Positions 6,557-19,314 of a stretch of 40,815 nucleotides of DNA are shown here, one piece after another (position 1 is the stretch's first letter; the number at the start of each line of letters is the position of its first letter). The DNA comes from an uncultured Eubacteriales bacterium (GTDB lineage Bacteria; Bacillota; Clostridia; Oscillospirales; Oscillospiraceae). The translations under genes and the position numbers were made by a program. The notes beneath the pieces were generated by a model that was not told where the DNA came from, searched no databases, and worked only from the letters and a program-made list of their open reading frames with translations. The stretch lies in assembly GCA_900319635.1 (NCBI GenBank), contig ONPF01000016.1, positions 1 to 40,815 on the forward strand. The letters run 5' to 3'.

Positions 6557-6621
6557 CTGCTGCAAGCTCCCATTCTTCCGGATTCTGCCCGGGGCAGGAC
6601 CGCCCCGTCCTTTTCGCGCAT

Positions 6622-6650
6622 ATTGTACGATACGGAAAACCGCCCGTCAA
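6622..6650 (-). promoter_or_regulatory. Sigma-A-type promoter of the UvrA-like gene
   Basis: Minus-strand TTGACG (6645-6650), a 17-base spacer and TACAAT (6622-6627), about 65 bases upstream of the start codon. Confidence 0.7.
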
Positions 6651-6674
6651 GGCAAATCCCCCCGGGCACGGGGC

Positions 6675-6714
6675 AAAAAAGCAGTCCGGAGCGATGCGTA
6701 CACGCCGGACTGCT
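6675..6714 (-). terminator. Intrinsic terminator of copA
   Basis: Minus-strand stem AGCAGTCCGG / CCGGACTGCT (6705-6714 with 6680-6689) followed by a six-T run (6675-6680). It lies between copA and the promoter of the UvrA-like gene. Confidence 0.75.
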
Positions 6715-6732
6715 TTCTATCGGGTATCCGTA

Positions 6733-6936
6733 TTACTCGATGCCCAGGATCTTGTAGTCCTGCGCCTCCACGGCGGCCTTCATGGTCTCGAAATCGGCGG
6801 TGCCGGTGACGACGGCGGTGCCGGCCTCGTGGCTGACGACGGCGCTCTCCACGCCCTCCAGGGCCTCCAGGGTCTTCTTCACGCGGGCCTCGCAGTGCTT
6901 GCACATCATGCCCTCGATCTTCAGGGTTCTCTCCAT
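6733..6936 (-). other. Possible internally initiated CopZ-like chaperone from the 3' end of copA
   Basis: Codon 776 of copA is an ATG preceded nine bases upstream by AAGGAGAG (6944-6951). Initiation here would give a 67-residue protein with GMMCKHC near its start, the size of free CopZ copper chaperones. There is no stop between the ATPase and this segment, so the same codons also form the C-terminal domain of the ATPase. Whether both products exist is not shown by sequence. Confidence 0.5.
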
Positions 6937-9261
6937 GGTACTACTCTCCTTTTCTTCAAAGATTTCAGCGGGGATCTCTATGGTCTTCTTCCGGGGCCGG
7001 TCATGCCGGGGATCCCGGAGCTTGAACAGGTTCAGGCGCAGGGCGTTCATGCAGACGGTAAAGCTGGAAAGGCTCATGGCCGCCGCGCCGATCATGGGGT
7101 TCATCTCCCAGCTCCAGCCGAAGAGCGCCTGGTAAAAGCCCGCGGCCAGGGGGATGCAGATAATGTTGTAGAAAAAGGCCCAGAACAGGTTCTCGTGGAT
7201 GTTGCGCACCGTTGCCCGGCTGAGGCTCACGGCGGCGGACACATCGGAAAGGCGGGACTTCATCAGCACCACGTCCGCCGCGTCGATGGCCACGTCCGCT
7301 CCCGCCCCGATGGCAATGCCCAGATCGGCGCGGGTCAGAGCCGGGGCGTCGTTGATCCCGTCGCCCACCATGGCGACCTTGCCGCTCTCCTGCAGCCTGC
7401 GGATCACGGCCTCCTTGCCGTCGGGCAGGACGCCGGCGATCACATGGTCGACCCCCGCCTGCCCGCCGATGGCCTTCGCCGTGCGGGCGTTGTCTCCGGT
7501 TAACATAACTACCGTCAAGCCCATGTTCTGTAACTCTTTGACTGCGGATGCCGAGTCCTCCTTGATGGTATCGGCCACGGCCAGGATGCCGAGAAGCCGC
7601 CCATCCTCCGCGAAGAACAGGGGCGTTTTGCCCTGGGCGGCCAGCCTGTCCGCTTCCTGGCGCAGCGCCTGGGGCACGGCGCAGCGGCTCTGCATGAACT
7701 TGCCGGAGCCGCCCAGCAGGGTCTTTCCCTCCCGCTGCGCGGTGAGGCCGTTGCCGGGCAGGGCGCGGAAGCCCTCCAGCGGCTGAGGCGCCGTCTGCTT
7801 TTCCTCCGCGAAGGCCATCACGGCCTTGGCCAGGGGATGCTCGGAATACTGCTCCAGGGAGGCGGCGGCGAGAAGCAGCGCGCTCTCGCTCAAGCCCTGG
7901 GCGGGCAGCACGTCCGTCACCCGGGGCTCCCCGGCGGTGACGGTGCCGGTCTTGTCCAGGGCAACGATGTCCATCTTCCCCGCCTCCTCCTGGGAGACGG
8001 CGGTCTTAAAGAGAATGCCGTTTTTGGCGCCCACGCCGTTTCCCACCATGATGGCCACCGGGGTGGCAAGGCCCAGGGCGCAGGGGCAGGAGATCACCAG
8101 CACGGCGATGGCCCGGGCGATGGAGAAGGTGAAGGTCTTGCCGGCGATGAGCCAGATCCCCAGCGTCAGCAGCGCGACGCCGATGACCGCCGGGACGAAC
8201 ACGCCGGAGACCCTGTCCGCGATGCGGGCGATGGGCGCCTTGGTAGCCGCCGCGTCCGAGACCATGCGGATGATCTGGCTGAGGGTGGTGTCCTCCCCCA
8301 CGCGGGTGGCTCGGGCTTTGAGATAGCCGGACTGGTTGATGGTGGCGGCGGAGAGCCGGTCGCCGGGAGCCTTGTCCACGGGGATGGACTCGCCGGTGAG
8401 AGCGGCCTCGTTCACGGCACTCTCCCCCTCCAGCACAACGCCGTCCACAGGGATGGCCTCCCCGGGTCGAACCGCGAACACGTCCCCCACCTGGACGGCG
8501 GCGACGTCCACCTCCCGCTCCTCCCCGTCCACCCAGAGCACGGCAGTCTTGGGCTTGAGCTTCATCAGGCTCTTGAGGGCGTCGGTGGTGCGGCCCTTGG
8601 ACAGGGCCTCCAGCATCTTGCCTACCGTGATGAGGCAGGGGATCATGGCCGCCGTCTCAAAATACAGGTTGTGGGCGTAGCGGTGCAGGCTCTCCATCTC
8701 CCCCGCCCCCTGAGCGGCGATCATGAGATAGAGCTCCGCCAGGCTGTAGCCAAAGGCGGCGGCGGAGCCCAGGGCCACCAGGGTGTCCATATTGGGCGCG
8801 CGGTGCCAAAGGCTTTGAAAGCCGCTGGTAAAGAACTTTTTGTTGATGAGCATGACCGCGATGGCGATCAGCATCTGGGTGAGGGCCATGGCCACGTGAT
8901 TTTCCAGAAAGGCCGGCACCGGGAAGCCCGCCATGCTGTGCCCCATGGAGAGGTACATCAGCAGCGCCAGAAAGCCCAGGGAAGAGAGCAGCCGCTTTTT
9001 CAGCTTCGGCGTCTCCCGGTCTGCAAGGGCATCCTCCTCCGGAGCGGCGGCAGCCTTGGCCGCGCCCTTGGGGCTGGCGCCGTAGCCCGCGGCCTCCACC
9101 GCGGCGACGATAGCCTTTTCGTCCGCCGTGCCCTCCACGCCCATGGAATTGGTGAGCAGGCTCACCGAGCAGGCCGTCACGCCGGGCACCGCGTTCACCG
9201 CCTTTTCCACCCGGGCCGAGCAGGCGGCGCAGCTCATGCCGGTGACGTTGTATTGTTGCAT
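6733..9261 (-). CDS. copA: Copper-exporting P1B-type ATPase with N- and C-terminal metal-binding domains
   Basis: This 842-residue heavy-metal P-type ATPase exports Cu(I) across the membrane. The first metal-binding domain has GMSCAAC at residues 8-14. Membrane helices follow from about 92. The actuator domain has LTGESIP (288-294), the transport site is CPC (392-394), the phosphorylated Asp is in DKTGT (D436), the family's HP motif is SEHP (473-476), and the hinge is GDGINDAP (633-640). After a linker a second metal-binding domain with GMMCKHC (784-790) ends the protein. ATG 9261 is chosen because AAGGTGA lies just upstream and the conserved GMSCAAC follows at once. A longer frame upstream runs through repeat DNA and is rejected. 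csoR lies upstream on the same strand. Confidence 0.93.
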   Translation of the reverse strand: MQQYNVTGMSCAACSARVEKAVNAVPGVTACSVSLLTNSMGVEGTADEKAIVAAVEAAGYGASPKGAAKAAAAPEEDALADRETPKLKKRLLSSLGFLALLMYLSMGHSMAGFPVPAFLENHVAMALTQMLIAIAVMLINKKFFTSGFQSLWHRAPNMDTLVALGSAAAFGYSLAELYLMIAAQGAGEMESLHRYAHNLYFETAAMIPCLITVGKMLEALSKGRTTDALKSLMKLKPKTAVLWVDGEEREVDVAAVQVGDVFAVRPGEAIPVDGVVLEGESAVNEAALTGESIPVDKAPGDRLSAATINQSGYLKARATRVGEDTTLSQIIRMVSDAAATKAPIARIADRVSGVFVPAVIGVALLTLGIWLIAGKTFTFSIARAIAVLVISCPCALGLATPVAIMVGNGVGAKNGILFKTAVSQEEAGKMDIVALDKTGTVTAGEPRVTDVLPAQGLSESALLLAAASLEQYSEHPLAKAVMAFAEEKQTAPQPLEGFRALPGNGLTAQREGKTLLGGSGKFMQSRCAVPQALRQEADRLAAQGKTPLFFAEDGRLLGILAVADTIKEDSASAVKELQNMGLTVVMLTGDNARTAKAIGGQAGVDHVIAGVLPDGKEAVIRRLQESGKVAMVGDGINDAPALTRADLGIAIGAGADVAIDAADVVLMKSRLSDVSAAVSLSRATVRNIHENLFWAFFYNIICIPLAAGFYQALFGWSWEMNPMIGAAAMSLSSFTVCMNALRLNLFKLRDPRHDRPRKKTIEIPAEIFEEKESSTMERTLKIEGMMCKHCEARVKKTLEALEGVESAVVSHEAGTAVVTGTADFETMKAAVEAQDYKILGIE

Positions 9262-9275
9262 TGCAATCACCTTCC

Positions 9276-9335
9276 ATATAGGCTCCCCTGCCAAAGGGGA
9301 GCTGTCTGGCCGCAGGCCAGACTGAGGGGTTTTCC
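9276..9335. repeat. Palindrome-rich dispersed repeat
   Basis: Two adjacent hairpins, GCTCCCC/GGGGAGC (9282-9302) and GTCTGGCC/GGCCAGAC (9304-9322), are followed by TGAGGGG. It resembles in style the repeat at 23985-24128, and no coding potential is credible. It occupies the leader between csoR and copA together with the two elements that follow. Confidence 0.55.
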
Positions 9336-9366
9336 TCTTTGCCTTCCCCCGGCGGGGAACCAAAAT

Positions 9367-9393
9367 CGGGACGTCGAGGGCGCCGTCCCCTAC
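9367..9393 (-). repeat. Single covarying palindrome (GTAGGG family, loop type B)
   Basis: Arms GGGACG/CGTCCC enclose the loop TCGAGGGCGC, followed by CTAC. The loop closely matches that of the three copies at 37756-37881 (CCGAGGRCGT), while the arms differ and remain complementary. Confidence 0.55.
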
Positions 9394-9484
9394 GAGGAAC
9401 GGGGAGGCGCGGGCGAATACTCTCACCCCTACGGTGTCATTGCGAGGCGACGTGGCAATCCGCATCCCCCGTCTCCTGAACACT

Positions 9485-9612
9485 GATACTAATACCTGAT
9501 AGAAAGCTTTAGAAAGATTTCCGAGGCAGAATTGTGACAGGCGAGGCGCTTCCCGCAGAGCATAATGGAGATATATGGTCAGATTCAAAGATTTCTATTA
9601 GGTGTTAGTATG
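9485..9612. mobile_element. MITE-like element with imperfect terminal inverted repeats
   Basis: The 29-base ends (9485-9513 and 9584-9612) are inverted copies of each other with a handful of mismatches; both contain ATACTAA, ACCT, ATAGAAA and CTTT in the same order. The 128-bp unit has no gene and ends just before the csoR stop region. A short GTCATTGCGAGGC...GGCAATCCG repeat (9437-9465) lies directly to its left. It may also carry a weak minus-strand promoter (TTGAAT, 18 bases, TATGCT) that could serve copA. Confidence 0.5.
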
Positions 9613-9631
9613 AACACGCAAAACTGAAAAC

Positions 9632-9964
9632 TCATTTCATCATCTTGCCCAGGGTGTCCAGCAGCTCGTCCACCACTTCATCATGCCCCTCGTGCAGGTC
9701 GTTTACCACACAGGAGCGGATATGCTGGCTCAAAAGCTCCCGGGAGAAGGCGTTCAGCGCGGCGTTGGCCGCGGCGGCCTGGGTCAGAATGTCCGGGCAA
9801 TAGGCGCTCTCGTCCAGCATCCGGCGGATGCCCCGGATCTGCCCTTCGATGCGGCTGAGACGGTTGCAGAGCTTTTTATATTCCTCCGGCGTGCGGCGCC
9901 GGGTCTTGTGAGCTTCCTGCTTCTCCCCTTCCGCCGGGGCGCAGCAGCAGCATTTCTCCTCCAT
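9632..9964 (-). CDS. csoR: CsoR-family copper-sensing repressor
   Basis: This 110-residue all-helical DNA-binding repressor fits the CsoR/RcnR family. The Cu(I) ligand set is complete: C56, then 24 residues, H81, then three residues, C85, the spacing of known copper-responsive CsoR proteins. The helix RLSRIEGQIRGIRRML (35-50) is the family's conserved basic stretch. Odd: the N-terminus begins MEEKCCCCAPAEGEK, with four consecutive cysteines that are not part of the core fold and could bind metal. ATG 9964 has AAGGAT upstream; an upstream in-frame extension lies inside the promoter/operator and is rejected. It sits upstream of copA on the same strand, with repeats between them. It likely represses itself through the operator at 9992-10008. 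Confidence 0.92.
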   Translation of the reverse strand: MEEKCCCCAPAEGEKQEAHKTRRRTPEEYKKLCNRLSRIEGQIRGIRRMLDESAYCPDILTQAAAANAALNAFSRELLSQHIRSCVVNDLHEGHDEVVDELLDTLGKMMK

Positions 9965-9986
9965 GGGATCACATCCTTTCGCCTGT

Positions 9987-10015
9987 ATAATATACCCCAT
10001 GTGGGTATTTGTCAA
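9987..10015 (-). promoter_or_regulatory. csoR promoter with CsoR-type operator in the spacer
   Basis: Minus-strand TTGACA (10010-10015), a 17-base spacer and TATTAT (9987-9992). The spacer is filled by a 17-base palindrome at 9992-10008 (ATACCCACATGGGGTAT), matching the TACCC...GGGGTA form of CsoR operators. Repressor bound there would block RNA polymerase directly. Confidence 0.75.
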
Positions 10016-10049
10016 GAAGGAGTTTCACTGCGGGGAACGGGGGAGAATC

Positions 10050-10333
10050 GTAGGGGAGGGCCTTGCCCCCTCCCGTTTGTCAGACACGGGTGCAGGTCGG
10101 CGGGAGGGGCATACCCTAAAGGGCACTTAGCCCCTCCCCTACGGGAAAACGCGGGTCTGCTCCGTAGGGGCGACCTGTGGTCGCCCGCTGGTACGGCATC
10201 CTTCCATGTCCGCGGGCGATTCATGAATCGCCCCTACAAGGGAACGTGGGTCTCCACAGCAGGGGCCGTTCACGAACGGCCCGCCTGTCCGACGTTTGCG
10301 CAGGTCCGCGGGCGATTCGGCTATCGCCCCTGC
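10050..10333. repeat. Array of six covarying palindromes in alternating orientation
   Basis: Elements at 10050-10075(+), 10101-10142(-), 10164-10188(+), 10212-10236(-), 10259-10284(+) and 10308-10333(-). Each starts with GTAGGG or GCAGGG on one side and ends CCCG/CCGC on the other. Stem arms differ between elements (GCGACC/GGTCGC, GCGATT/AATCGC, GGCCGTT/AACGGCC) but always pair. Spacers after minus elements share GGGAACGYGGGTCT; those after plus elements share a GCAGGTC-like end. This fills most of the 443-base gap between csoR and rnfB. No gene is credible here. Confidence 0.7.
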
Positions 10334-10356
10334 ACGGGAACGCGGGTCTGCGCATG

Positions 10357-10387
10357 AAAACGCCCCTGCCGATTTCGGCAGGGGCGT
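10357..10387 (-). terminator. Intrinsic terminator of the rnf operon
   Basis: A 13-bp stem (ACGCCCCTGCCGA paired with TCGGCAGGGGCGT) with a minimal loop is followed on the minus strand by TTTT, 20 bases after the rnfB stop. Confidence 0.8.
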
Positions 10388-10407
10388 CTTGCGATCAAAT
10401 CTACTGT

Positions 10408-11199
10408 TTACTTGAGGGTGGTGATGATGTGGCGGGGGCAGACCTCGACACAGTGGCCGCACTGGATGCACTTCTCGGGGTCGATCTTCGCCACGAAATT
10501 GTCCACATGGATGGCGTCCGCCGGGCACTCCCGCTGGCACTTCATGCAGCCGATGCAGCCCACCTTGCAGATCTTCATGACCTGGGCGCCCTTGTCCTGG
10601 TTGCGGCAGGCGACCATGATCTTCTGCTTCTCGGGGATCAGCTTCACGATGTCCTTGGGGCAGGCGTCCACACAGGCGCCGCAGCCCACGCACTTGGAAC
10701 GATCCACCTGAGCGACGCCGTTCACCACATGCATGGCGTCGAACTTGCAGGCCTTGGCGCAGTTGCCCATGCCGATGCAGGCGAAGGTGCAGAGCTTGTT
10801 GCTCTTGCCGCCGAAGAGCATGGCGGCGCGGCAATCCTCGGGGCCGGTGTAGTTGAAACGGAGCTCAGCGGTATCGGTGCAGCCGGAGCAGGGCACGAAG
10901 GCGACCTGCTTCTCCGCATCGGAGGCAGCCACGCCCATGATCTCCGCCAGCTTCGCGGCAGTCGCCGCGCCGCCGGCCACGCACTTGTTGCAGGGCGCCT
11001 CGCCCTTGGCCACAGCGGCGGCGTAGCCGTCGCAGCCGGGATAGCCGCAGCCGCCGCAGTTGGCGCCGGCCAGGGCGTCACGGACAGCGGCCTGACGGGG
11101 ATCCACTTCCACATGGAAGATCTTGGAGGCAAAGGCCAGCAGCGCGCCGAAGGCAGCGCCGAGCACGCCGAGGACGAGAACGGAATAGAGTATCGTCAT
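10408..11199 (-). CDS. rnfB: Rnf complex subunit RnfB (polyferredoxin)
   Basis: This 263-residue subunit receives electrons from ferredoxin in the Rnf ion pump. It has an N-terminal membrane anchor (residues 1-27). The four-Cys cluster motif CGGCGYPGC (48-56), with further Cys at 70/73, binds the RnfB-specific 4Fe-4S cluster. Two more Cys are in PCSGC (104, 107). Ferredoxin-type groups follow at C137/141/147/151, C170/173/176/180, C215/218/221/225 and C244/247/250/254. This is richer than the proteobacterial protein and fits the clostridial polyferredoxin form. It is the last gene of rnfCDGEAB, 12 bases after rnfA, and is followed by a strong terminator. Confidence 0.95.
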   Translation of the reverse strand: MTILYSVLVLGVLGAAFGALLAFASKIFHVEVDPRQAAVRDALAGANCGGCGYPGCDGYAAAVAKGEAPCNKCVAGGAATAAKLAEIMGVAASDAEKQVAFVPCSGCTDTAELRFNYTGPEDCRAAMLFGGKSNKLCTFACIGMGNCAKACKFDAMHVVNGVAQVDRSKCVGCGACVDACPKDIVKLIPEKQKIMVACRNQDKGAQVMKICKVGCIGCMKCQRECPADAIHVDNFVAKIDPEKCIQCGHCVEVCPRHIITTLK

Positions 11200-11211
11200 A
11201 TCCTTACCTCC

Positions 11212-11799
11212 TTAGAAGATCTGCATCCCGCTGAAGCCCATGAAGGCCAGCGCCACCAGACCGGCGGAAACCAGGCAGATGGGGAAGCCCTCAAAGCACT
11301 CGGGATAATCGGCGTAGGCGATGCGCTCGCGCACGCTGGCAAAGAGCACGATGGCCAGCATGAAGCCCAAGCCACCGGTGATGCCGTAGATCACGGAGCC
11401 CAGGAAGTTGTAGCTGTTCTGCACGTTCAGCAGCACCACGCCCAGCACCGCGCAGTTGGTGGTGATCAGGGGCAGGTAGATGCCCAGGGCGGAGTACAGA
11501 CTGGGGACGGCCTTTTTCAGGAACATCTCCACGAACTGAACCAGAGCGGCAATAACCAGGATGAAGGCCAGGGTCTTCAAAAACTCCAGCCCCAGGGGGA
11601 CGAGCAGGAAATCATAGACCACATAGCAGATGGCGGAGGCCAGACCCATGACGAACACGACGGCCAGGCCCATGCCGGTGGCAGTCTCCACCTTGCTGGA
11701 GCAGCCCAGGAAGGGACAGCAGCCCAGGAACTGGGAGAAAATGAAGTTGTTGATCAGGATCGCGCCGATGGCGATCTCCAGATACTTGGTTACGCTCAT
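11212..11799 (-). CDS. rnfA: Rnf complex membrane subunit RnfA
   Basis: This 195-residue integral membrane protein has about six hydrophobic helices. Family features visible are NNFIFSQFLGCCPFLGCS near the N-terminus and LITTNCAVLGVVLLN in the middle. With RnfE it forms the pseudosymmetric membrane core that holds a 2Fe-2S cluster within the membrane through conserved Cys of the two subunits. Here C27 or C28 and the NCA cysteine are candidates. The start ATG overlaps the rnfE stop by four bases, so translation is probably coupled. A ribosome binding site lies inside the rnfE tail. Confidence 0.95.
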   Translation of the reverse strand: MSVTKYLEIAIGAILINNFIFSQFLGCCPFLGCSSKVETATGMGLAVVFVMGLASAICYVVYDFLLVPLGLEFLKTLAFILVIAALVQFVEMFLKKAVPSLYSALGIYLPLITTNCAVLGVVLLNVQNSYNFLGSVIYGITGGLGFMLAIVLFASVRERIAYADYPECFEGFPICLVSAGLVALAFMGFSGMQIF

Positions 11800-12488
11800 G
11801 CCGCTTCATCCTCCTTTTCCGTATTCTTTGCAGCCGCTTCTTTCTTCTTGGCGGCCTTCTTCAGCGCGGCCTGCATGGCGGCGAAGAGGAAGCCCAGAGT
11901 GAGGAAGCCGCCCACAGGCAGGGTCAGGATGGAGGCGCCGAAGTCGGAATTGAAGATCTGGATACCCTCACCGGTGCCGTCCAGGGTGATGCCCTTGGCC
12001 AGGTCGATGAGGCCGCCGCCGAAGCGGCCGCTGCCCAGCAGCTCGCGGATCACGCACATGATCACCAGCACCACGGTGTAGCCCAGGCCCTGGGTGATGC
12101 CGTCCACAAAGGAGGGGCCGATGGGGTTCTTCTGGCAGAAGGCCTCGGCACGGCCGATGATGATGCAGTTGACGACGATCAGCGGGATGAACACGCCCAG
12201 AGATTCGCTGAGCGCGGGGATGAAGGCCTGCAGCAGCAGGTCAACGATGGTGACGAAGCCCGCGATGATGACCACGAAGATGGCCAGACGGATCTCGTCC
12301 GGAATAAACTTGCGCACGGCGGAGACCGCCACGTTGCAGCAGGTCAGGATGATGAGCACCGAGAGGCCCATGCCCAGGCCGTTGAAGAGCGAAGTGGTAA
12401 TGGCCATGGTGGCGCACATGCCCAGCTGCTGAACCAGGATGGGGTTATTGGTGATAACGCCCTCTTTGAGTTGTCTCTTAAAATTCAT
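11796..12488 (-). CDS. rnfE: Rnf complex membrane subunit RnfE
   Basis: This 230-residue membrane protein starts MNFKRQLKEGVITNNPILVQ, the family's typical opening, and contains LTCCNVAVSAV and VNCIIIGRAEAF with the Cys expected at the membrane 2Fe-2S site. It is the RnfA homologue in the complex. The C-terminus is an Ala/Lys/Glu-rich cytoplasmic tail (residues about 205-230), longer than in proteobacterial RnfE and similar in style to the tails of RnfC and RnfD in this operon. AAGGAGG lies at correct distance from the ATG, in the 12-base gap after rnfG. Confidence 0.94.
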   Translation of the reverse strand: MNFKRQLKEGVITNNPILVQQLGMCATMAITTSLFNGLGMGLSVLIILTCCNVAVSAVRKFIPDEIRLAIFVVIIAGFVTIVDLLLQAFIPALSESLGVFIPLIVVNCIIIGRAEAFCQKNPIGPSFVDGITQGLGYTVVLVIMCVIRELLGSGRFGGGLIDLAKGITLDGTGEGIQIFNSDFGASILTLPVGGFLTLGFLFAAMQAALKKAAKKKEAAAKNTEKEDEAA

Positions 12489-12500
12489 GGCATTTCCTCC

Positions 12501-13088
12501 TTACTTCGCAGCCACCATGGCTTCCACGAACTGGATCGCGGCGGCGGTTGCGGCAGTCACGCCCTTGGAGGTGATGGTGGCGCCGGACATGGCGTCGATA
12601 TCCTTGAGCTGGACGCTCCCGTCCACGCCCTCAAAGGAGGCGCGGAAGTCGCGGCCCTTCTGGGTGTCGCCGGCGGCGACGGCGCCGAGACCCGGGGTTT
12701 CGGAGTGCTGGGTGATGGAGATGCCGGTGCAGGTGAAGTCATTGCTCACGCCCACGATCATCACGATGCTGCCCTGGGCGCCGGAGAACTTGGTCTCCAC
12801 CACATAGCCGGAGGCGTCCGCAGCCTGGGCCGCGGAGAGGATCTCCACATCCTGGCCGTTGGCGGTGACGGTGGTGGGAATGTTCAGCGCCTTCAGGTCG
12901 ATGTCAACATACTGCTCCTCGCCCTCGGGAACCTTTACCTCCAGCACGGCGGCTCTGGCCCTGTTGGTCTTGTTGGTCTGGTATTCTTTGATGCGATCCC
13001 GGGTGACGAGATCCACCACGCCGAGGATGCCGGCCACGATGGCGCAGATCAAAAACAGCACAAGGGCGAGCTTCAAAATCTTATTCAT
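12501..13088 (-). CDS. rnfG: Rnf complex FMN-binding subunit RnfG
   Basis: 195 residues with one N-terminal membrane helix (5-25) and an extracytoplasmic FMN-binding domain. The flavin attachment motif is DAMSGATITS (165-174): FMN is linked by a phosphodiester to the Thr of SGAT. TPGLGA (131-136) is the other conserved family element. The attachment requires an ApbE-type transferase, which is not encoded in this window. The start overlaps the end of rnfD (ATG within the last four bases), indicating coupled translation. Confidence 0.94.
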   Translation of the reverse strand: MNKILKLALVLFLICAIVAGILGVVDLVTRDRIKEYQTNKTNRARAAVLEVKVPEGEEQYVDIDLKALNIPTTVTANGQDVEILSAAQAADASGYVVETKFSGAQGSIVMIVGVSNDFTCTGISITQHSETPGLGAVAAGDTQKGRDFRASFEGVDGSVQLKDIDAMSGATITSKGVTAATAAAIQFVEAMVAAK

Positions 13089-14125
13089 TTCGCAGCCTCC
13101 TTTGCAGCCTTCTTCTCCGCCTTCTTTGCGGCCTTCTCCTCCGCGATGTCCTCCTTGCTGACGCCGAACTGGTGGCGGTGGAAGCCCTTGTCAATGGCCC
13201 AGGCGCACAGGTTCATCAGCAGGATGGCGTAGCTCACGCCCTCGGCGTTGCTGCCGAAGTAGCGGATCAGGACGGTGATGGCGCCGCAGCCCGCGCCGTA
13301 GAGCAGCTGGCCCTTGAGGGTCACGGGGCTGGTGGCATAGTCGGTGGCCATGAAGAAGGCGCCAAGCAGCAGGCCGCCGCCCAGAACGTTGTAGAGCATG
13401 AAGTCCACACGGCTCATGCCCGCTCCGCCGAAGATCAGCGTCAGCAGGGCGACGGTACCGATGTAGGACACGGGGATGCGCCAGGAGATCACCTTGCGCA
13501 GAATTAAGTACAGTCCGCCGATCAGCAGCGCCAGGGCGCTGATCTCGCCCATGGCGCCGGGGATCAGGCCCAGGAACATATCCTTCAGGGAATAGACCAT
13601 CTCGCCGCCGTTTTTCATCAGGTTCAGGGGGGTGGCGGTGGTGATGGCGTCGATGGCCGCGCTGCCGGTATGGGCGGGGGTGTTGAAGGTCGCCATGAGG
13701 GTGGTGTAGGAGGCCAGCAGGAAGGCGCGGCCTGCCAGGGCGGGGTTCAGGAAGTTCTTGCCGATGCCGCCGTAGAGCTGTTTGACCACCACGATGGCAA
13801 AGAAGCTGCCGATGACGGGCACCCACCAGGGCACGAAGGGAGACAGGGTCAGCGCCAGCAGCAGGCCCGTGACCACGGCGGAGAGATCGCCGATGGTGTT
13901 GGACTGCTTGCGGAGCTTGCGCATCGCCCACTCAAAAAACACGGCGGAGAGCACGGAGGCGGCGATGACCACCAGGGTGTTCAGGCCGAACTGCCACACG
14001 GCCACGCCCACGGCGGGCAGCAGCGCCAGGATCACGTTCAGCATCAGGCGGCGGGTATCGGTCCCGGTACGCACCTGGGGCTGATAGGCTACGTCAAGAA
14101 TGATGCGTTCTTTCTTCTCGTTCAT
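13085..14125 (-). CDS. rnfD: Rnf complex membrane FMN subunit RnfD
   Basis: This 346-residue subunit has about ten hydrophobic helices. FMN is attached at TTATP (162-166), corresponding to the SGAT-like motif of the family. NPALAGRAFL (127-136) is a conserved stretch. The cytoplasmic C-terminus is an Ala/Lys-rich tail (EEKAAKKAEKKAAKEAAK). The ATG overlaps the rnfC stop codon (ATGA), and AAAGGAGGCG lies within the 3' end of rnfC. RnfD and RnfG together carry the covalent flavins that pass electrons across the membrane. Confidence 0.95.
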   Translation of the reverse strand: MNEKKERIILDVAYQPQVRTGTDTRRLMLNVILALLPAVGVAVWQFGLNTLVVIAASVLSAVFFEWAMRKLRKQSNTIGDLSAVVTGLLLALTLSPFVPWWVPVIGSFFAIVVVKQLYGGIGKNFLNPALAGRAFLLASYTTLMATFNTPAHTGSAAIDAITTATPLNLMKNGGEMVYSLKDMFLGLIPGAMGEISALALLIGGLYLILRKVISWRIPVSYIGTVALLTLIFGGAGMSRVDFMLYNVLGGGLLLGAFFMATDYATSPVTLKGQLLYGAGCGAITVLIRYFGSNAEGVSYAILLMNLCAWAIDKGFHRHQFGVSKEDIAEEKAAKKAEKKAAKEAAK

Positions 14126-15465
14126 TTCTTCGCCTCCTTTGCGGCTTCCGCCTTTGCCTTCTCCTTGGCGGCCTTCGCCTGGAGCATCAGCTTCGCGGTC
14201 TTAAAGGCGTGGGTCAGGGGCATGCGGGCGGGGCAGTTGAAGGAGCAGCTGCCGCACTCGAAGCAGTCCATCACATGGTACTTCTCCAGATTCTCATAAT
14301 CCCCCTTGGCGTAGTGCATGTACATGAACACCGGCTCCAGCTTCATGGGACAGACGGTGATGCACTTGCCGCAGCGGATGCAGGTGGGCTCCTCCACATG
14401 GCGATCCTCCTCCTCGGTGAAGAACAGGACGCCGGAGGTGCCCTTGATGGTGGGCGCGTCAAAGCTGGTGGCGCAGATGCCCATCATGGGGCCGCCCAGG
14501 ACGATCTTGCGGGGCGTCTTCACGAAGCCGCCGCACTGCTCGGCCAGGTAGCCAAAGGGGGTGCCCACGCGGGTGAGGCCGTTCACGGTCTCCTTCAGGG
14601 CGCTGCCGGCCACGGTGACGATGCGCTCGATGACGGGCTTGCCCTCGTAGCAGGCCTGGTAGATGGCGTAGCAGGTGCGGGTGGAGACCACGTTCGCGCC
14701 CACGCCGGAGGGCAGACCGCCGGGCTTGACTTCCCGACCGGTGACGGCCTTGACCTGCATCTTCTCGCCGCCCTGAGGGTACTTGACCTTCTCGGGCACG
14801 ATCTCGATGCCGTACTTCTCGGGATGGAGGGAATTGAGCAGGTCGATGGCGTCCTGCTTGTTCACCTCGATGCCGTAGTAGGCCTTCTCCACGCCGCTGG
14901 CGATGCGAACCAGCTCGATTCCCTTCAGCAGCTGCTCGGGGAAGTTCAGCATGGTCAGATGGTCGCCGTTCAGGTAGGGCTCGCACTCGGCGCCGTTGAT
15001 AATGAGCTTATCCACCTTGCCGATGCCGCCGCTGATCTTGAAGGCGGTGGGGAACATGGCGCCGCCCATGCCGACCACGCCGGCTTCGCGGATGCGCGCA
15101 AGGATCGCGTCCTGATCCTTGAGCTGCTCCTCCGTGAGAGGCTCCATAAAATCGGGGGTATCCAGCCCGTCGTTCTCAATGACGACGGACATGATCATAT
15201 CCCCCAGGGGATGGGGGCGCGGCTCCACCGCCACCACCTTGCCGGACACGGAGGCGTGCACCGGGGCGGAGACGGGGGCGGGGCTTTCGCCGATTTTCTG
15301 ACCCATCTTCACCAGATCGCCCTTCTGCACCAGGGGCTTGCAGGGCGCGCCGATATGCTGGATCAGGGGGATCACGACCTGGGGCGGCGGCGCAATCACA
15401 GAGACCGGGATATCCGGCCGCTTCATGTAATTGGGATGAACGCCGCCTTTAAACGTGCGGGACAT
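14122..15465 (-). CDS. rnfC: Rnf complex NAD-reducing subunit RnfC
   Basis: 447-residue peripheral subunit. It opens MSRTFKGGVHPNYMK and has a lipoyl-like region (APVHASVSGKVVAVE). The NADH/FMN-binding Rossmann-like part follows (GVVGMGGAMFPTAFKI, INGAECEPYL). Two 4Fe-4S motifs are present: CIRCGKCITVC near 365 and CFECGSCSFNC near 405. An Ala/Lys-rich tail ends it. ATG 15465 is chosen over the in-frame GTG at 15474 because GAGGTGA (15471-15477) is placed five bases before the ATG and overlaps the GTG. It is the first gene of the operon, with its own promoter. Confidence 0.95.
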   Translation of the reverse strand: MSRTFKGGVHPNYMKRPDIPVSVIAPPPQVVIPLIQHIGAPCKPLVQKGDLVKMGQKIGESPAPVSAPVHASVSGKVVAVEPRPHPLGDMIMSVVIENDGLDTPDFMEPLTEEQLKDQDAILARIREAGVVGMGGAMFPTAFKISGGIGKVDKLIINGAECEPYLNGDHLTMLNFPEQLLKGIELVRIASGVEKAYYGIEVNKQDAIDLLNSLHPEKYGIEIVPEKVKYPQGGEKMQVKAVTGREVKPGGLPSGVGANVVSTRTCYAIYQACYEGKPVIERIVTVAGSALKETVNGLTRVGTPFGYLAEQCGGFVKTPRKIVLGGPMMGICATSFDAPTIKGTSGVLFFTEEEDRHVEEPTCIRCGKCITVCPMKLEPVFMYMHYAKGDYENLEKYHVMDCFECGSCSFNCPARMPLTHAFKTAKLMLQAKAAKEKAKAEAAKEAKK

Positions 15466-15499
15466 AAGCTTCACCTCGTTAAAAATTCATACGTTTAGC

Positions 15500-15529
15500 A
15501 TTCTACCACAATTCGTCGTAAAATGTCTA
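15500..15529 (-). promoter_or_regulatory. Promoter of the rnfCDGEAB operon
   Basis: Minus-strand TAGACA (15524-15529), an 18-base spacer and TAGAAT (15500-15505), about 35 bases upstream of the rnfC start. I see no clear operator. The rest of the gap to 15675 is AT-rich without a gene. Confidence 0.6.
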
Positions 15530-15675
15530 CAAGACGAAGGCCAAAAAACAGCGCTTTTCCTAGACAAGTTTGTAACAAGCCTGTTAATCTCTTGGCAAAT
15601 TTGTGCTGTTTGCACAAAAGTTTCCCTTTTGTCGTGATAGACGCACTTCTTCTGTTATTCCGGCTGAAAAGGCGC

Positions 15676-15710
15676 AAAAAGGACGGCGGTCTTTTCCTTG
15701 ACCGCCGTCC
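15676..15710 (-). terminator. Intrinsic terminator of the pseudokinase-lectin gene
   Basis: A perfect 11-bp stem (GGACGGCGGTC / GACCGCCGTCC, 15681-15710) with an eight-base loop is followed on the minus strand by TTTTT (15676-15680). It insulates rnf from the gene upstream. Confidence 0.8.
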
Positions 15711-15725
15711 GTGCGCTTTTTAGCT

Positions 15726-17348
15726 TTAGTTTCCGATCTCCAGCACATAGCCCATATTGCCGCTGTAACGGTTGGGGTAGAGGGAGACGGGATCGTTGCT
15801 GTTGTCGTTATAGACCCAGGCGCCGTCCTCGTAGTCCAGCATGATATAGTCCTCGGCCACGCCGTCCCACTCATAGGAGGGCTCCCCCTCCGCCCAGAGC
15901 AGGAACTCCACCGGCTCGCCGTTTTCCCAGACGAGGATGTCGCCCTCCCGGTGGCAGCCGATCCAGAGATGGAGGATCCCCTGCTGCTCGGCCAGGGCCG
16001 TGACCTCATCCAGCTCCTGCCGGCTGGTGATCACCGCCAGATACCCGCCCTGCTCCCGGCAGGCGGCTTGCGCCTGCAGCCAGGTGCTGTCGGAGCGCAC
16101 CACGGTGTAGCGGGGCTGCGCCGGCACCGGGTCGGGCACGGCCACCACCTGGGGGCTCTGCTCCTCGGCCTCCCCGGGCTGCGCCTGGGGATCGGGCTGC
16201 TGCGCATAGAAGCTCTGGGGATCCGGGGTGGGATTGATCTGGGTGGCCCGCTCGCTCCGCGGCCAGAAGAGGTTTACCGCCAGCGCCCCCGCCACAAGGG
16301 ACAGGCACAGGATCAGCACCACCGCCAGGGGGCGCAGATTGCGGCGCTTTTTCACCGCCTGCTCCGCCGTTTCCTGCGGCTCGCTCTCCGTCTGCTGCTG
16401 GGGCCGGGCGCGGACAGGCCGGGGCTGCTGAGGCAGCACCACCGGCGCCAGCTCCGGGTACTTCTCCTCCGTCAGGATGGGGATGGGCTGGCGATCCCTG
16501 CGGTCATGACTGGGCTCATAGACCCGGACGTCCTCCGGCTCCTCGTGGGGGATCGGCTCCGGCTCCTCCGGCTTCTGCTCGCTGAGACTGCCGAAGAACT
16601 CCTCCACCATGGCGCTGACGTCCTCGGGCTCCTGGAGCACCGGCTCCGGCTTTTCAAGTCCCGCGATCTCCTCCACGCTGCGGCTGGGGTCGGGCGCTTC
16701 CGGCTCCTCCGGCGCGTCCTTCTCCTCCTCGCCCCGCTCGATGATGTCCACCATCATGCGCTCGATGTCGCTGAGCTGCTCCGAGTCCTTTTTGAACACG
16801 GTCTCCGCTCCGGAGGCGCCGCCCAGATACTTGTTGTCCATGCAGCTCTCCAGCATGATCTGCAGCTCCTCCGGGCTCTGGTAGCGCTCGGCGGCCTTGA
16901 AGGCGGTGGCCTTCTCCAGCACCTCCGCCAGGCGCTTGCCGGCGCTCTTGGGCGCGGGGAGGGTCTTGCCGCTCATGCGGGCCAGCTGGCCGCTGGAGGT
17001 CACCGTCTCGAAGGGCAGCTTCCCCTCGCCCAGGCCGTAGTAAATGAGCAGCGCCAGAGAATAGACGTCGGAGGCGGGGCTGCTCTCGCCGTGCCAGTAG
17101 AGCTCCGGCGCCACAAACTCCAGCTCCTGCCCGGACCACTTTTCCAGCTTTGCCGGTCCGATGGCATACTCGCCCTGGTCATTTACGCATATATTATCCG
17201 GAAAAATACCGCCCCGATAGGCGCGGGAGCCCACCTCCGCCTTCAGATGCAGGCAGAGCCGGGAGACAAACTGCAGCAGCTCCTGCTTGTCCAGGCGCAG
17301 CAGCCCCTCGCCGATGGCGCGTTCCGGATGAAACTCCAAGTTGCTCAT
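15726..17348 (-). CDS. Membrane protein joining a degenerate kinase C-lobe to a C-type-lectin-like domain
   Basis: 540 residues. Residues 1-170 resemble only the C-lobe of bacterial Ser/Thr kinases: an alpha-E-like helix (23-40), YRGGIFPDNICV where HRDxKPxN is expected, AIGPAKL in place of DFG, VAPEL (APE motif, 79-83), SDVYSLALLIYYGL (93-106) and ERYQSPEEL (154-162). The glycine loop and ATP-binding Lys are absent, so catalysis is unlikely. Residues 200-335 are an acidic, Pro-rich linker. One membrane helix spans about 340-361. A Pro/Gln-rich stalk leads to a C-type-lectin-like domain (414-540) with W423, C430, LWIG (461-464), VWENGEPV and WAEGEP plus EDY. The predicted topology is kinase-like part inside, lectin outside. 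ATG 17348 has GGGGTGAG upstream; a strong promoter precedes it. Ligand and partner unknown. Confidence 0.8.
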   Translation of the reverse strand: MSNLEFHPERAIGEGLLRLDKQELLQFVSRLCLHLKAEVGSRAYRGGIFPDNICVNDQGEYAIGPAKLEKWSGQELEFVAPELYWHGESSPASDVYSLALLIYYGLGEGKLPFETVTSSGQLARMSGKTLPAPKSAGKRLAEVLEKATAFKAAERYQSPEELQIMLESCMDNKYLGGASGAETVFKKDSEQLSDIERMMVDIIERGEEEKDAPEEPEAPDPSRSVEEIAGLEKPEPVLQEPEDVSAMVEEFFGSLSEQKPEEPEPIPHEEPEDVRVYEPSHDRRDRQPIPILTEEKYPELAPVVLPQQPRPVRARPQQQTESEPQETAEQAVKKRRNLRPLAVVLILCLSLVAGALAVNLFWPRSERATQINPTPDPQSFYAQQPDPQAQPGEAEEQSPQVVAVPDPVPAQPRYTVVRSDSTWLQAQAACREQGGYLAVITSRQELDEVTALAEQQGILHLWIGCHREGDILVWENGEPVEFLLWAEGEPSYEWDGVAEDYIMLDYEDGAWVYNDNSNDPVSLYPNRYSGNMGYVLEIGN

Positions 17349-17378
17349 GTTCTCACCCCTGAGATTCTTTGTCAATTT

Positions 17379-17407
17379 ATACTATCACGGCAATAAAATT
17401 ATGTCAA
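17379..17407 (-). promoter_or_regulatory. Promoter of the pseudokinase-lectin gene
   Basis: Minus-strand TTGACA (17402-17407), a 17-base spacer and TAGTAT (17379-17384) preceded by TGA, an extended -10. It lies about 30 bases upstream of the start codon, so the gene is its own transcription unit. Confidence 0.7.
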
Positions 17408-17434
17408 CCGAGAGAATTATGAAAAATTGTGAAG

Positions 17435-17470
17435 AACGGCCGGATTCCCCTGAATCCAGCCGTTTTATTG
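17435..17470. terminator. Hairpin upstream of the pseudokinase-lectin promoter
   Basis: AACGGC-GGATTC pairs with GAATCC-GCCGTT (one mismatch between blocks) with a CCCT loop, followed by TTTTATT on the plus strand and CTTCACAATTTTTC on the minus strand. It may end minus-strand transcription from the beta-CASP gene upstream. Direction is uncertain. Confidence 0.5.
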
Positions 17471-17535
17471 CAAAAATGTTATGTTTTGTAATCGTTTTGT
17501 TATTTGGGCGCCGGGGTGGGGAGATGCAGGACGCC

Positions 17536-17700
17536 GCAGGGAGGCATCCCCAGATGCCTCCGGGGATAACAGGCAACCGACGACGGAGCGATCTGGGGAT
17601 CGCTCCCTACGGGGCCGCCGAGCTGCGCCGTAGGAGCGGGGCTTGGCTCCATCTGTGGACAAGGGCGCGGGTCGGCGGGCGATTCGGCTATCGCCCCTAC
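17536..17700. repeat. Array of four covarying palindromes
   Basis: Elements at 17536-17563(+), 17584-17610(-), 17630-17650(+) and 17675-17700(-) again alternate in orientation. Arms are GGAGGCAT/ATGCCTCC, GGAGCGATC/GATCGCTCC, a weaker GGAGC/GCTCC, and GGGCGAT/ATCGCCC. The last is nearly the same as the element at 10308-10333. They fill the 355-base gap between the beta-CASP gene and the pseudokinase-lectin gene. No gene is seen here. Confidence 0.65.
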
Positions 17701-17703
17701 GCA

Positions 17704-19314
17704 CTACGCGTCCCGTTCCACCCGCTCGGCCAGCTTTTCGATCCGGTCGGCGTGGCCGGCCAGCTCCTTGTTGGCATGCCCCTCCAGCCTGCGGCAGGCC
17801 GCCAGCAGCCGTTCCGCCGCGGCGATGAGCCGGGTGAAGGCGGGGCTGACCCTGCGGGTCTGTCCGCTCTTCTTCTCCACCGGGACGCCCTCGGTGATCC
17901 GGACAAACTGCCCCGAGAGCAGGTCGAACTCCGTGCCGCTGTAGGGGGCGAAGGCCTGATAGCCTCGCTCCTCGCTGAGGCATTTGACAAAGGCCTCAGC
18001 CGCCTCCGGGTCGCCGTGGTTGACAAAAACCAGCTTCGGCTTCTCCCGGAAGCCCGCGAGCCAGCGGAGCAGGCCGTCCCTATCCGCGTGGCCGCTGACG
18101 CCGGGGAGGGTGTCGATCTGGGCGCGCACCTGCACCTCCTCGCCGAAGAGCTTCACGCTTTTGGCGCCGTCCACCAGGATGCGGCCCAGGGTACCCACGG
18201 CCTGGTAGCCCACGAAGAGCACCGTGCTCTCCGGCCGCCAGAGATTGTGCTTGAGATGGTGCCGCACCCGCCCCGCGTCACACATGCCAGAGGCGGAGAG
18301 GATGACCTTGGGGGTCTTGTCGTCGTTGATGGCCTTGGATTCCAGATCGCTGACCGTGAGCTCCAGGCCGGGGAAGACGATGGGGTTTACGCCCGCGCGG
18401 ATGAGCCGCTGCATCTCCTCGTCCAGAAACTGGGTGTCGCACTGGAGGAAGACGGAGGTAGCCTCGATGGCCAGGGGGCTGTCCACATAGACCGGGAAAT
18501 CCCCGTGGCCGGTGACCAGGCCCCGCTCCTTGATCTCCCGGATGAAATAGAGCATCTCCTGGGTGCGGCCCACAGCGAAGGAGGGGATGACCATGTTGCC
18601 GCCCCGGTCCAGGGTGGCCTGGATGCGCGCTGCCAGTTCCTGCACATAGTCCACCCGCTCCTCGGTGTGCAGCCGGTCGCCGTAGGTGGATTCGATCACC
18701 AGATACTCGGTGTCCTCCACGAACTGGGGGTCCCGCAGGATGGGCTGGCTCAGGTTGCCCACGTCGCCGGAGAAGGTGATCTTCCGCGTCTCGCCCCGCT
18801 CCCGGAGCCAGACCTCGATGGCGGCGGAGCCCAGCAGGTGCCCCACATCCGTCATGCGCAGGGAGACGCAGTCGTTCACCTGGAGCACCCGGCCGTAGTC
18901 GCAGGGGCGCAGCAGGCCGATGGCGCCGATGGCGTCGTCCAGATCGTAGAGGGGCTCCTCATGAGGCGCGCCGCTGCGCTGCCCCTTGCGGTTTTTGTAC
19001 TCCGCCTCGCTCATCTGGATGTTGGCGCAGTCGCGCAGCATGATGTCGCAGAGGGAGCAGGTGGCGGCGGTGGCGTAGATGGGGCCGCGGTAGCCCTGCT
19101 TGTACAGCAGCGGGAGCTTGCCCGCGTGGTCGATGTGGGCGTGGGTCAGCAGCACAAAGTCCAGCTGCGAAGCCCGGATCGGCAGGGGCTCGTTTACGAA
19201 GAGATCCTTCCCCTGCTCCATGCCGCAGTCCACCAAGCCTTTTTTGTCGCCCACCTCAATGAGCGTCATGCTGCCGGTGACCTCATGGGCCGCGCCGAGA
19301 AATGTGATTTTCAT
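17704..19314 (-). CDS. MBL-fold beta-CASP hydrolase, RNA-processing type
   Basis: This 536-residue protein resembles CPSF73-like nucleases. The metallo-beta-lactamase part has LTHAHIDHAGKLPLL (zinc ligands in HxHxDH), DVGHLLGSA and TFSGDVGN. The beta-CASP insert has VIPSFAVGRTQEML and SASGMCDAGRVRHHL. The closing zinc motif is GVSGHADRDGLLRW, followed by VFVNHGDPEAAEAF. Together these support zinc-dependent endo- or exonuclease action on RNA; RNA turnover or processing is the expected role. The C-terminal 70 residues are an extra helical, charged region (RLIAAAERLLAACRRLEGH) beyond the conserved core. The start has GGGAGG upstream. It is monocistronic, with repeats after the stop. Confidence 0.9.
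   Translation of the reverse strand: MKITFLGAAHEVTGSMTLIEVGDKKGLVDCGMEQGKDLFVNEPLPIRASQLDFVLLTHAHIDHAGKLPLLYKQGYRGPIYATAATCSLCDIMLRDCANIQMSEAEYKNRKGQRSGAPHEEPLYDLDDAIGAIGLLRPCDYGRVLQVNDCVSLRMTDVGHLLGSAAIEVWLRERGETRKITFSGDVGNLSQPILRDPQFVEDTEYLVIESTYGDRLHTEERVDYVQELAARIQATLDRGGNMVIPSFAVGRTQEMLYFIREIKERGLVTGHGDFPVYVDSPLAIEATSVFLQCDTQFLDEEMQRLIRAGVNPIVFPGLELTVSDLESKAINDDKTPKVILSASGMCDAGRVRHHLKHNLWRPESTVLFVGYQAVGTLGRILVDGAKSVKLFGEEVQVRAQIDTLPGVSGHADRDGLLRWLAGFREKPKLVFVNHGDPEAAEAFVKCLSEERGYQAFAPYSGTEFDLLSGQFVRITEGVPVEKKSGQTRRVSPAFTRLIAAAERLLAACRRLEGHANKELAGHADRIEKLAERVERDA

Follow-up and report, generated by a model that had tools for sequence, protein, structure and literature searches.

What can a membrane receptor do with a kinase domain of which only the C-lobe is present? 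The question is raised by a gene in a stretch of DNA of 40,815 nucleotides (hereafter the window), which encodes a 540-residue protein with a C-lobe-like pseudokinase at one end and a C-type-lectin-like domain (CTLD) at the other, Table 1. A preliminary description of this DNA had the limits of the gene right; the coding strand is the minus strand, with an open frame from an ATG at 17348 to a stop codon at 15728-15726, and the plus-strand frame across the same interval is just an antisense reading of the receptor gene. Only 11 in-frame codons separate the ATG from a stop upstream. A promoter-like site ahead of the gene and a terminator-like hairpin behind it suggest that the gene is probably transcribed alone. 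Its neighbours are a beta-CASP metallo-hydrolase gene upstream and rnf genes downstream. The beta-CASP gene adjoins the receptor in 24 of 29 same-genus loci and in 6 of 21 other loci, no conserved operon partner was found across these 29 and 21 loci, and the beta-CASP neighbour seems to point to no clear pathway. The intergenic stretch 5' of the receptor gene (17480-17720) contains, by eye, GC-rich repeated units, perhaps a dispersed repeat.

Table 1 Positions in the window of the receptor gene, its signals and the parts of its product
Feature	Position	Residues	Strand	Basis or remark
Receptor CDS	15726..17348		-	C-lobe pseudokinase, acidic linker, membrane helix, stalk, CTLD
Promoter-like TTGACA-17-TAGTAT	17379..17407		-	10/12 matches; consensus match only
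Shine-Dalgarno-like aggggtga	17360-17353		-	Read from sequence
Kinase C-lobe, N-lobe absent	16824..17321	about 10-175	-	Pfam, profile search, AlphaFold, Foldseek
Altered catalytic loop YRGGIFPDNI	17190..17219	44-53	-	HRD-Asp is Gly47, Asn52 kept
DFG position, reads PAK	17148..17156	65-67	-	Alignment with other kinases
Linker motif 1 VFKKDSEQLSDIERMMVDII	16740..16799	184-203	-	LSDxERMM-type pattern
Linker motif 2 PIPILTEEKYPELAPVVL	16434..16487	288-305	-	EEKNPELxPV-type pattern
Membrane helix	16275..16331	340-358	-	Hydropathy; KKRR before helix
C-type-lectin-like domain	15729..16109	414-540	-	Pfam, AlphaFold, Foldseek
EPS triplet	15876..15884	489-491	-	Where sugar-binding CTLDs have EPN/QPD
W-x-Y-N-D	15804..15818	511-515	-	Place of WND motif
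Terminator-like hairpin and T tail	15681..15710		-	11-pair stem; consensus match only

The preliminary description had proposed a fold search on residues 1-170 and 414-540 as the check on its two domain assignments, and both domains were found. For the N-terminal part, the Pfam model PK_Tyr_Ser-Thr matches residues 76-156 (E 4.5e-5, 23.3 bits against a cut-off of 23.1), while the Pkinase model stays under its cut-off (17.4 versus 31.7). A 48-row C-lobe profile searched against kinases in the PDB retrieves bacterial kinases of the PknB/PrkC type at E 3.5e-15, with an alignment that starts at about chain residue 108 and thus covers their C-lobe, not their N-lobe. An AlphaFold model built on the same number of sequences reaches a pLDDT of 88.9 and a pTM of 0.87 (model residues 172-184 lie below 50), and all 50 Foldseek matches listed for it are kinases, with E-values of 5e-8 to 3e-7 and TM-scores on the query of 0.63-0.73. 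The lectin end is recognised by Pfam Lectin_C at residues 421-489 (E 2.1e-7, 32 bits, cut-off 22.6), a model that has no match in 14 control genomes; its AlphaFold model, from a 54-sequence alignment, has a pLDDT of 94.7 and a pTM of 0.88, and every one of the 50 Foldseek matches listed for it is a C-type lectin domain, with E-values between 1e-7 and 8e-7. The two alignments, of 48 and 54 sequences, exclude near-copies and some other rows.

The acidic linker and the single membrane helix between the two domains are likewise as originally described: residues 186-340 count 41 D/E, 21 K/R and 23 P, and the linker is followed by the helix, with KKRR ahead of it, a stalk and the CTLD. Among 50 hand-picked homologues, all have an excess of K/R on the N-terminal side of the helix and 44 have it as their single such segment; by the positive-inside rule, the CTLD would lie outside and the C-lobe inside. 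The rows excluded from this set were duplicates, contig-end-cut L075, L078, L085, SH3-insert L094, L095, L096, L101 and L103, which, duplicates apart, are part of a larger set of 140 rows. A PHROG match to a Zot-like model (0.0052, residues 326-422, from linker to stalk) looks compositional.

Whether the missing N-lobe is a peculiarity of this one gene can be judged from its relatives. In a C-lobe tree of 134 rows, built by a quick method from the 140-row set less 6 rows shorter than 120 residues, 84 pseudokinases constitute one side of a single branch (SH-aLRT 95, length 0.68), with 40 rows that carry the HRD-Asp, an intact kinase-CTLD protein (L103) and nine other pseudokinase rows on the opposite side. 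A CTLD follows in the same frame as the C-lobe in 77 of the 84; of the other seven, five run off the available sequence (L075, L078, L085, L126, L137), L124 has an end that looks frame-broken, and L144 has SH3-like repeats instead. An N-lobe model matched none of the 84 rows, and no separate N-lobe gene was found among the frames of at least 80 codons in the 84 loci, where, for most loci, the flanks searched extended no further than 1.5-3 kb to either side. The model recovered 19 of 20 held-out kinases (L014 was missed) and five of the nine pseudokinase rows outside the clade; because it missed the other four, which are degenerate, a wholly degenerate N-lobe remnant may persist where the sequence leaves room for one. 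Counted from stop to stop, 10-53 residues precede the C-lobe match in 79 of the 84 members and 74-133 in five, three of which have an acidic low-complexity preamble (L142, L139, L081), one an ATG within the frame and near the C-lobe (L083) and one an internal ATG that is a possible start (L078).

The first reading of this gene, that the N-lobe has been lost, therefore holds in the sense that no recognisable N-lobe is present in the receptor or in any of the 84 clade members. It had also been noted that close homologues with an intact N-lobe would reduce the case to a local truncation; the homologue search found instead that a recognisable N-lobe is lacking across many genera. Among 36 genomes of the same genus, C-lobe and CTLD share one frame in 27, a CTLD is present without a C-lobe match in 8, and 1 has no match; among 300 genomes of the same bacterial family, 139 have some match, a number that includes intact kinases and CTLD-only proteins. 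The C-lobe is moreover under purifying selection: by the Nei-Gojobori method, applied to 12 pairs that were picked by the analyst and share sequences, its dN/dS is 0.05-0.26 in the 11 pairs with a finite value (dS is saturated in one). A local truncation, a pseudogene or an assembly artefact, for which nothing speaks beyond the missing N-lobe itself, is rejected because an 84-member clade shares the form, here in most same-genus genomes and across the family, and because its C-lobe is constrained; we give this explanation practically no credit.

Within the clade, what has been preserved of the kinase is its frame. The catalytic HRD and DFG residues had been described as lost, and the residues are indeed gone, but the segments themselves remain with other residues in their place. 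Aligned with other kinases, HRDxKPxN reads RGGIFPDN in the receptor (residues 45-52), and the clade as a whole has replaced it by (H/R)-G-G-x-x-P-x-N, with G46 in 83 and N52 in 81 of the 84 members. At position 47, that of the HRD-Asp, the 84 rows have G in 73, N in 5, A in 4, C in 2 and D in none, and at the DFG-Asp position P is found in 44, including the receptor, and D in 7. The set expected of an active kinase, an N-lobe with an ATP-binding loop and lysine together with the HRD and DFG aspartates, was not found in the clade. Structural residues of the kinase are, by comparison, invariant in 50 of 50 homologues (P81, E82, W85, D94, Y96, R124, G127, L140, R155), among them the APE Glu (E82), the alpha-F Asp (D94) and the alpha-I Arg (R155) by which a kinase fold is recognised, and the 48-sequence alignment has eleven invariant columns. 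From the invariance of the structural residues and the lack of conservation of the HRD and DFG aspartates, we conclude that the kinase scaffold is retained and that the known chemistry is, as far as can be predicted, gone. One could also speculate that some other chemistry, such as AMPylation, has been kept or gained, as in SelO and SidJ, dead-looking kinases with new activities according to a 2025 review (PMC12599244), and the retained Asn52 would fit this; with no recognisable N-lobe and hence no known nucleotide cleft, and with the DFG-Asp unconserved, we regard it as very improbable. Matches of the receptor to PADLOC models of defence systems (PD-T4-6 and others, best 2.2e-10) fall within residues 74-197 and are explained by kinase homology, so that membership in such a system was rejected; one match elsewhere, at residues 314-399, scores 10.6 bits.

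The explanation that we favour, with a probability of roughly 0.55, is that the protein is a non-enzymatic single-pass surface receptor in which the C-lobe and the linker serve to dock a partner in the cytoplasm. The folds of the two domains, the single helix, the lack of a recognisable N-lobe and of catalytic residues throughout the clade and the purifying selection are read from sequences and models; orientation, ligand binding, docking and signal transfer are what we infer from them. The original suggestion that the inner part binds rather than phosphorylates fits the absence of an N-lobe, the complete absence of the HRD-Asp, the unconserved DFG-Asp and the purifying selection. In such a receptor, the N-lobe would have been lost once, in an ancestor within the same bacterial family, leaving the C-lobe inside the cell as a protein-docking platform; the CTLD outside would bind a ligand, possibly a glycan via the Ca2+ site of EPS, E499 and YND; the conserved linker motifs LSDxERMM and EEKNPELxPV would help to bind the cytoplasmic partner; and the signal would pass by binding, the receptor having no enzyme of its own.

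The linker motifs recur well beyond the receptor. With patterns that were written after the sequences had been seen, the LSDxERMM type is found in 51 of the 84 clade members, in 6 of the 11 C-lobe-less proteins from the same genus and in 0 of 2010 other frames, the EEKNPELxPV type in 26/84, 5/11 and 0/2010, respectively, and a third motif, YxVDKxFE, in 16 clade members (13 of which lack the other two) and again in 0/2010 other frames. That the motifs are kept in proteins lacking the C-lobe suggests that the linker may bind something on its own.

The same C-lobe-less proteins bring up a challenge to the docking explanation. The short forms present in 8 of the 36 same-genus genomes consist of a CTLD and a membrane helix, most of them with linker motifs, and have no C-lobe match. 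In a CTLD tree that is weakly resolved and was likewise built by a quick method, they are placed among the long forms, with five changes between the two, one of which is forced by starred branches; the tree excludes fragments shorter than 90 residues and loci from L107 on, apart from L129, L139, L142, L144 and L160 where these gave a CTLD match. Short forms among long ones imply that some lineages can do without the C-lobe, which counts against docking, as do the lack of a conserved operon partner and the finding that the CTLD is the more constrained domain in 6 of the 11 pairs and the C-lobe in 5. For the closest pair that includes the receptor, the dN/dS values are 0.14 (C-lobe), 0.51 (linker), 0.67 (helix and stalk) and 0.39 (CTLD). 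The protein could accordingly act at the surface as an adhesin or in glycan capture through its CTLD alone, with the C-lobe as a tolerated cytoplasmic anchor inherited from an ancestral receptor kinase, and the adjacent copy in genome G006, which looks like a lipoprotein-type CTLD protein without a cytoplasmic domain, would be in keeping with this. A tolerated anchor fits less well with the low dN/dS and eleven invariant columns of the C-lobe, with its retention across the 84-member clade and with the kept linker motifs, and we consider this alternative unlikely, if deserving of serious weight. The copy in G006 (L054, G006:C72, 4715-5533, minus strand) adjoins the long receptor and has a lipoprotein-like start (LAGC) and a long, repetitive acidic stalk.

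The best matches of the C-lobe elsewhere in its own genome are five tandem kinases, and it is conceivable that the C-lobe acts on active Ser/Thr kinases as a decoy or an inhibitor, mimicking the substrate-docking face of a related kinase and titrating substrates or kinases at the membrane. Several receptor-carrying genomes, among 36 checked (23 of the same genus, own included), have no match to kinases of the tandem type; this makes such a decoy quite improbable in our view, and the cluster on contig C32 was rejected as an obligatory partner on the same grounds. Among intact kinases, a PrkC-like kinase is the likeliest candidate for the partner, because some receptor-carrying genomes show no other kinase match: in G011, G015, G016, G019 and G021, the sole Pkinase match besides the receptor C-lobe is one frame of 564-576 aa, which by its size we take to be PrkC, a pointer that is a hint given that the genomes are 67-93% complete. 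The tandem cluster itself (L045, G000:C32:52000-71500, 5015-18697) consists of a PP2C-type phosphatase gene, assigned by eye, followed by the five Ser/Thr kinase genes, two of which have the N-lobe and C-lobe in different frames, with the break at about the same place.

On the outside, the sequence of the CTLD is compatible with sugar binding. The residues of EPS (E489, P490, S491), E499, N514 and D515 occupy what we take to be the places of the Ca2+ site 2 ligands in sugar-binding CTLDs. Among the 50 homologues, E489 is present in 49, P490 in 50 and S491 in 46 (T in the other 4), W511 in 50, N514 in 46 and D515 in 50, and the site 2-like set is complete in 45, the receptor included. The same triplet is found in macrophage mannose receptor 1, in the CTLD that matches best. 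It is thus possible that the domain binds sugar; the EPS triplet alone is no proof of it. DCIR (CLEC4A) offers a comparison from animals, with its CTLD outside, a non-enzymatic tail inside and the N-terminus in. Like the receptor, DCIR has S for N in the triplet, and mannose/fucose binding has been reported for it, though not by all assays (PMC3679074). Its cytoplasmic part is a short ITIM tail interacting with phosphatases, unlike the kinase C-lobe and linker of the receptor.

The cysteines of the CTLD needed some correction. C430, described at first as the single expected cysteine of the lectin domain, is accompanied by C465 in the ectodomain, whereas the absence of the C-terminal lectin cysteine stands, L536 being found at its place. 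The usual disulfide is accordingly missing in the receptor, as had been described, but 28 of the 50 homologues have the cysteine pair. The C-terminal cysteine occurs in 29 of the 50 and co-varies with C430, being present in 28 of 37 homologues with C430 and in 1 of 13 without it (raw counts, uncorrected for relatedness). In the receptor and L016, L017 and L018, the C-terminal cysteine is lost and C430 and C465 are kept; the second half of the pair has been lost in the lineage of the receptor. Of 9 homologues with C430 but not C536, 8 carry C465, versus 14 of the 28 with both cysteines, which argues weakly for a putative substitute C430-C465 disulfide. The CLec fold also brings to mind targets of diversity-generating retroelements (DGRs), a reading that was rejected because the genome, at 91.7% completeness, gives no RVT_1 (reverse transcriptase) match.

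How does this arrangement compare with known systems? The PASTA kinases PrkC/PknB are, by profile, the nearest solved relatives of the C-lobe, and their layout of cytoplasm, membrane and ectodomain is the same; the receptor differs in having no N-lobe, no catalytic residues and a CTLD in place of PASTA, in line with an NCBIfam score of 34.8 for the PASTA kinase model (PrkC/Stk1) against a cut-off of 450 and no PASTA in Pfam. In the membrane protein MviN (ActPs3), a pseudokinase is fused to a flippase; the receptor too carries a pseudokinase domain, unlike MviN without N-lobe or flippase, and Pfam matches on it only kinase and lectin. The mycobacterial MviN pseudokinase domain dimerises back to back, with many of the constraints in its N-lobe (PMC12599244). 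EssB/YukC of type VII secretion is a transmembrane pseudokinase of Firmicutes, as is the receptor, and has a scaffolding role (PMC12599244). The receptor differs in adjoining rnf and beta-CASP genes, not a secretion locus, the YukC family model has no Pfam match on it at E up to 1, and the passages of the review on EssB mention no CTLD (PMC12599244). A close parallel is the eukaryotic, actin-linked KIND domain, a kinase C-lobe used alone for binding, which in SPIRE binds a formin peptide motif (PMC11231147). The receptor likewise has a C-lobe alone, although this C-lobe is nearest to PknB/PrkC-like bacterial kinases and resides within a membrane receptor, and the KIND family model finds no Pfam match on it at E up to 1. 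By analogy with KIND and with the scaffolding of EssB, the most economical reading is that the receptor would have no enzyme, with the CTLD outside and a platform for docking inside.

The review cited above groups the families of bacterial pseudokinases by their altered ATP-binding, catalytic and metal-binding motifs (PMC12599244), and a word search found 'C-lobe', 'truncat' and 'lectin' absent from its text. No pseudokinase-CTLD protein was named among the results listed by searches of open-licence literature. The receptor thus belongs to a known kind, the transmembrane pseudokinases; what is new is the reduction to a C-lobe and its joining to a canonical C-type lectin domain. Tentatively, and with less confidence than in the docking explanation itself, one could go further and see in it a new bacterial receptor class resembling animal C-type lectin receptors, with a glycan-reading CTLD outside and a KIND-like adaptor inside, in which the C-lobe together with LSDxERMM and EEKNPELxPV would form a docking code for a shared partner, and which would have arisen when a pseudokinase lost its N-lobe in one Oscillospiraceae-like ancestor. 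A widely conserved C-lobe-only family would mean that in bacteria the C-lobe alone can be a module under selection, like KIND in eukaryotes, and its combination with canonical Lectin_C would equip gut bacteria with a type of receptor otherwise known from the immune systems of animals.

The named records with close matches to the C-lobe come from assemblies of uncultured Oscillospiraceae, Ruminococcaceae and Clostridia, and many of them bear rumen or gut labels; the lower ranks of the match list are kinases from other phyla. A search across the order, limited to E up to 1e-36 and to 8 scored candidates per genome, found matches in 6 of 394 genomes, four of the same family, own included, and two outside it; of the latter two matches, L194 is an intact kinase and L195 a full-length pseudokinase of the HGN type that has, by eye, PASTA-like repeats. 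Outside the family, the candidates of this search include no C-lobe-only form. Since HGN stands for HRD in L195, and also in members of the clade, catalysis would seem to have been lost earlier than the N-lobe. The lectin fusion, for its part, probably happened more than once: L103 (genome G084, same bacterial family) has the domain order of the receptor, kinase, membrane helix and CTLD, but with N-lobe, HRD and DFG intact, and groups with intact kinases in the tree, which makes it probably a separate fusion. A second origin of the C-lobe-only form is possible as well, given that L158, which like L152 comes from a Ruminococcus-labelled MAG, falls outside the 84-member clade; both look C-lobe-only, with an even shorter activation segment and a fusion to several membrane helices, and the match of L152 is too short for the tree. 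Also outside the clade, L160 (208-2403) combines a pseudokinase and a CTLD, and the 165 residues upstream of them give no match to the N-lobe model.

A few further observations were made at these loci. Next to L160 lies a paralogue with an SH3-like domain at its end. In relatives (L087-L093 and L098), a CTLD also ends longer proteins with zinc-ribbon, membrane-helix and VWA-like parts (frames of 646-933 aa, domains assigned by eye). Finally, two adjacent FHA-domain frames (L187 and L189, G000:C27) lie in a locus that, by eye, looks like type VII secretion with an EssC-like component.
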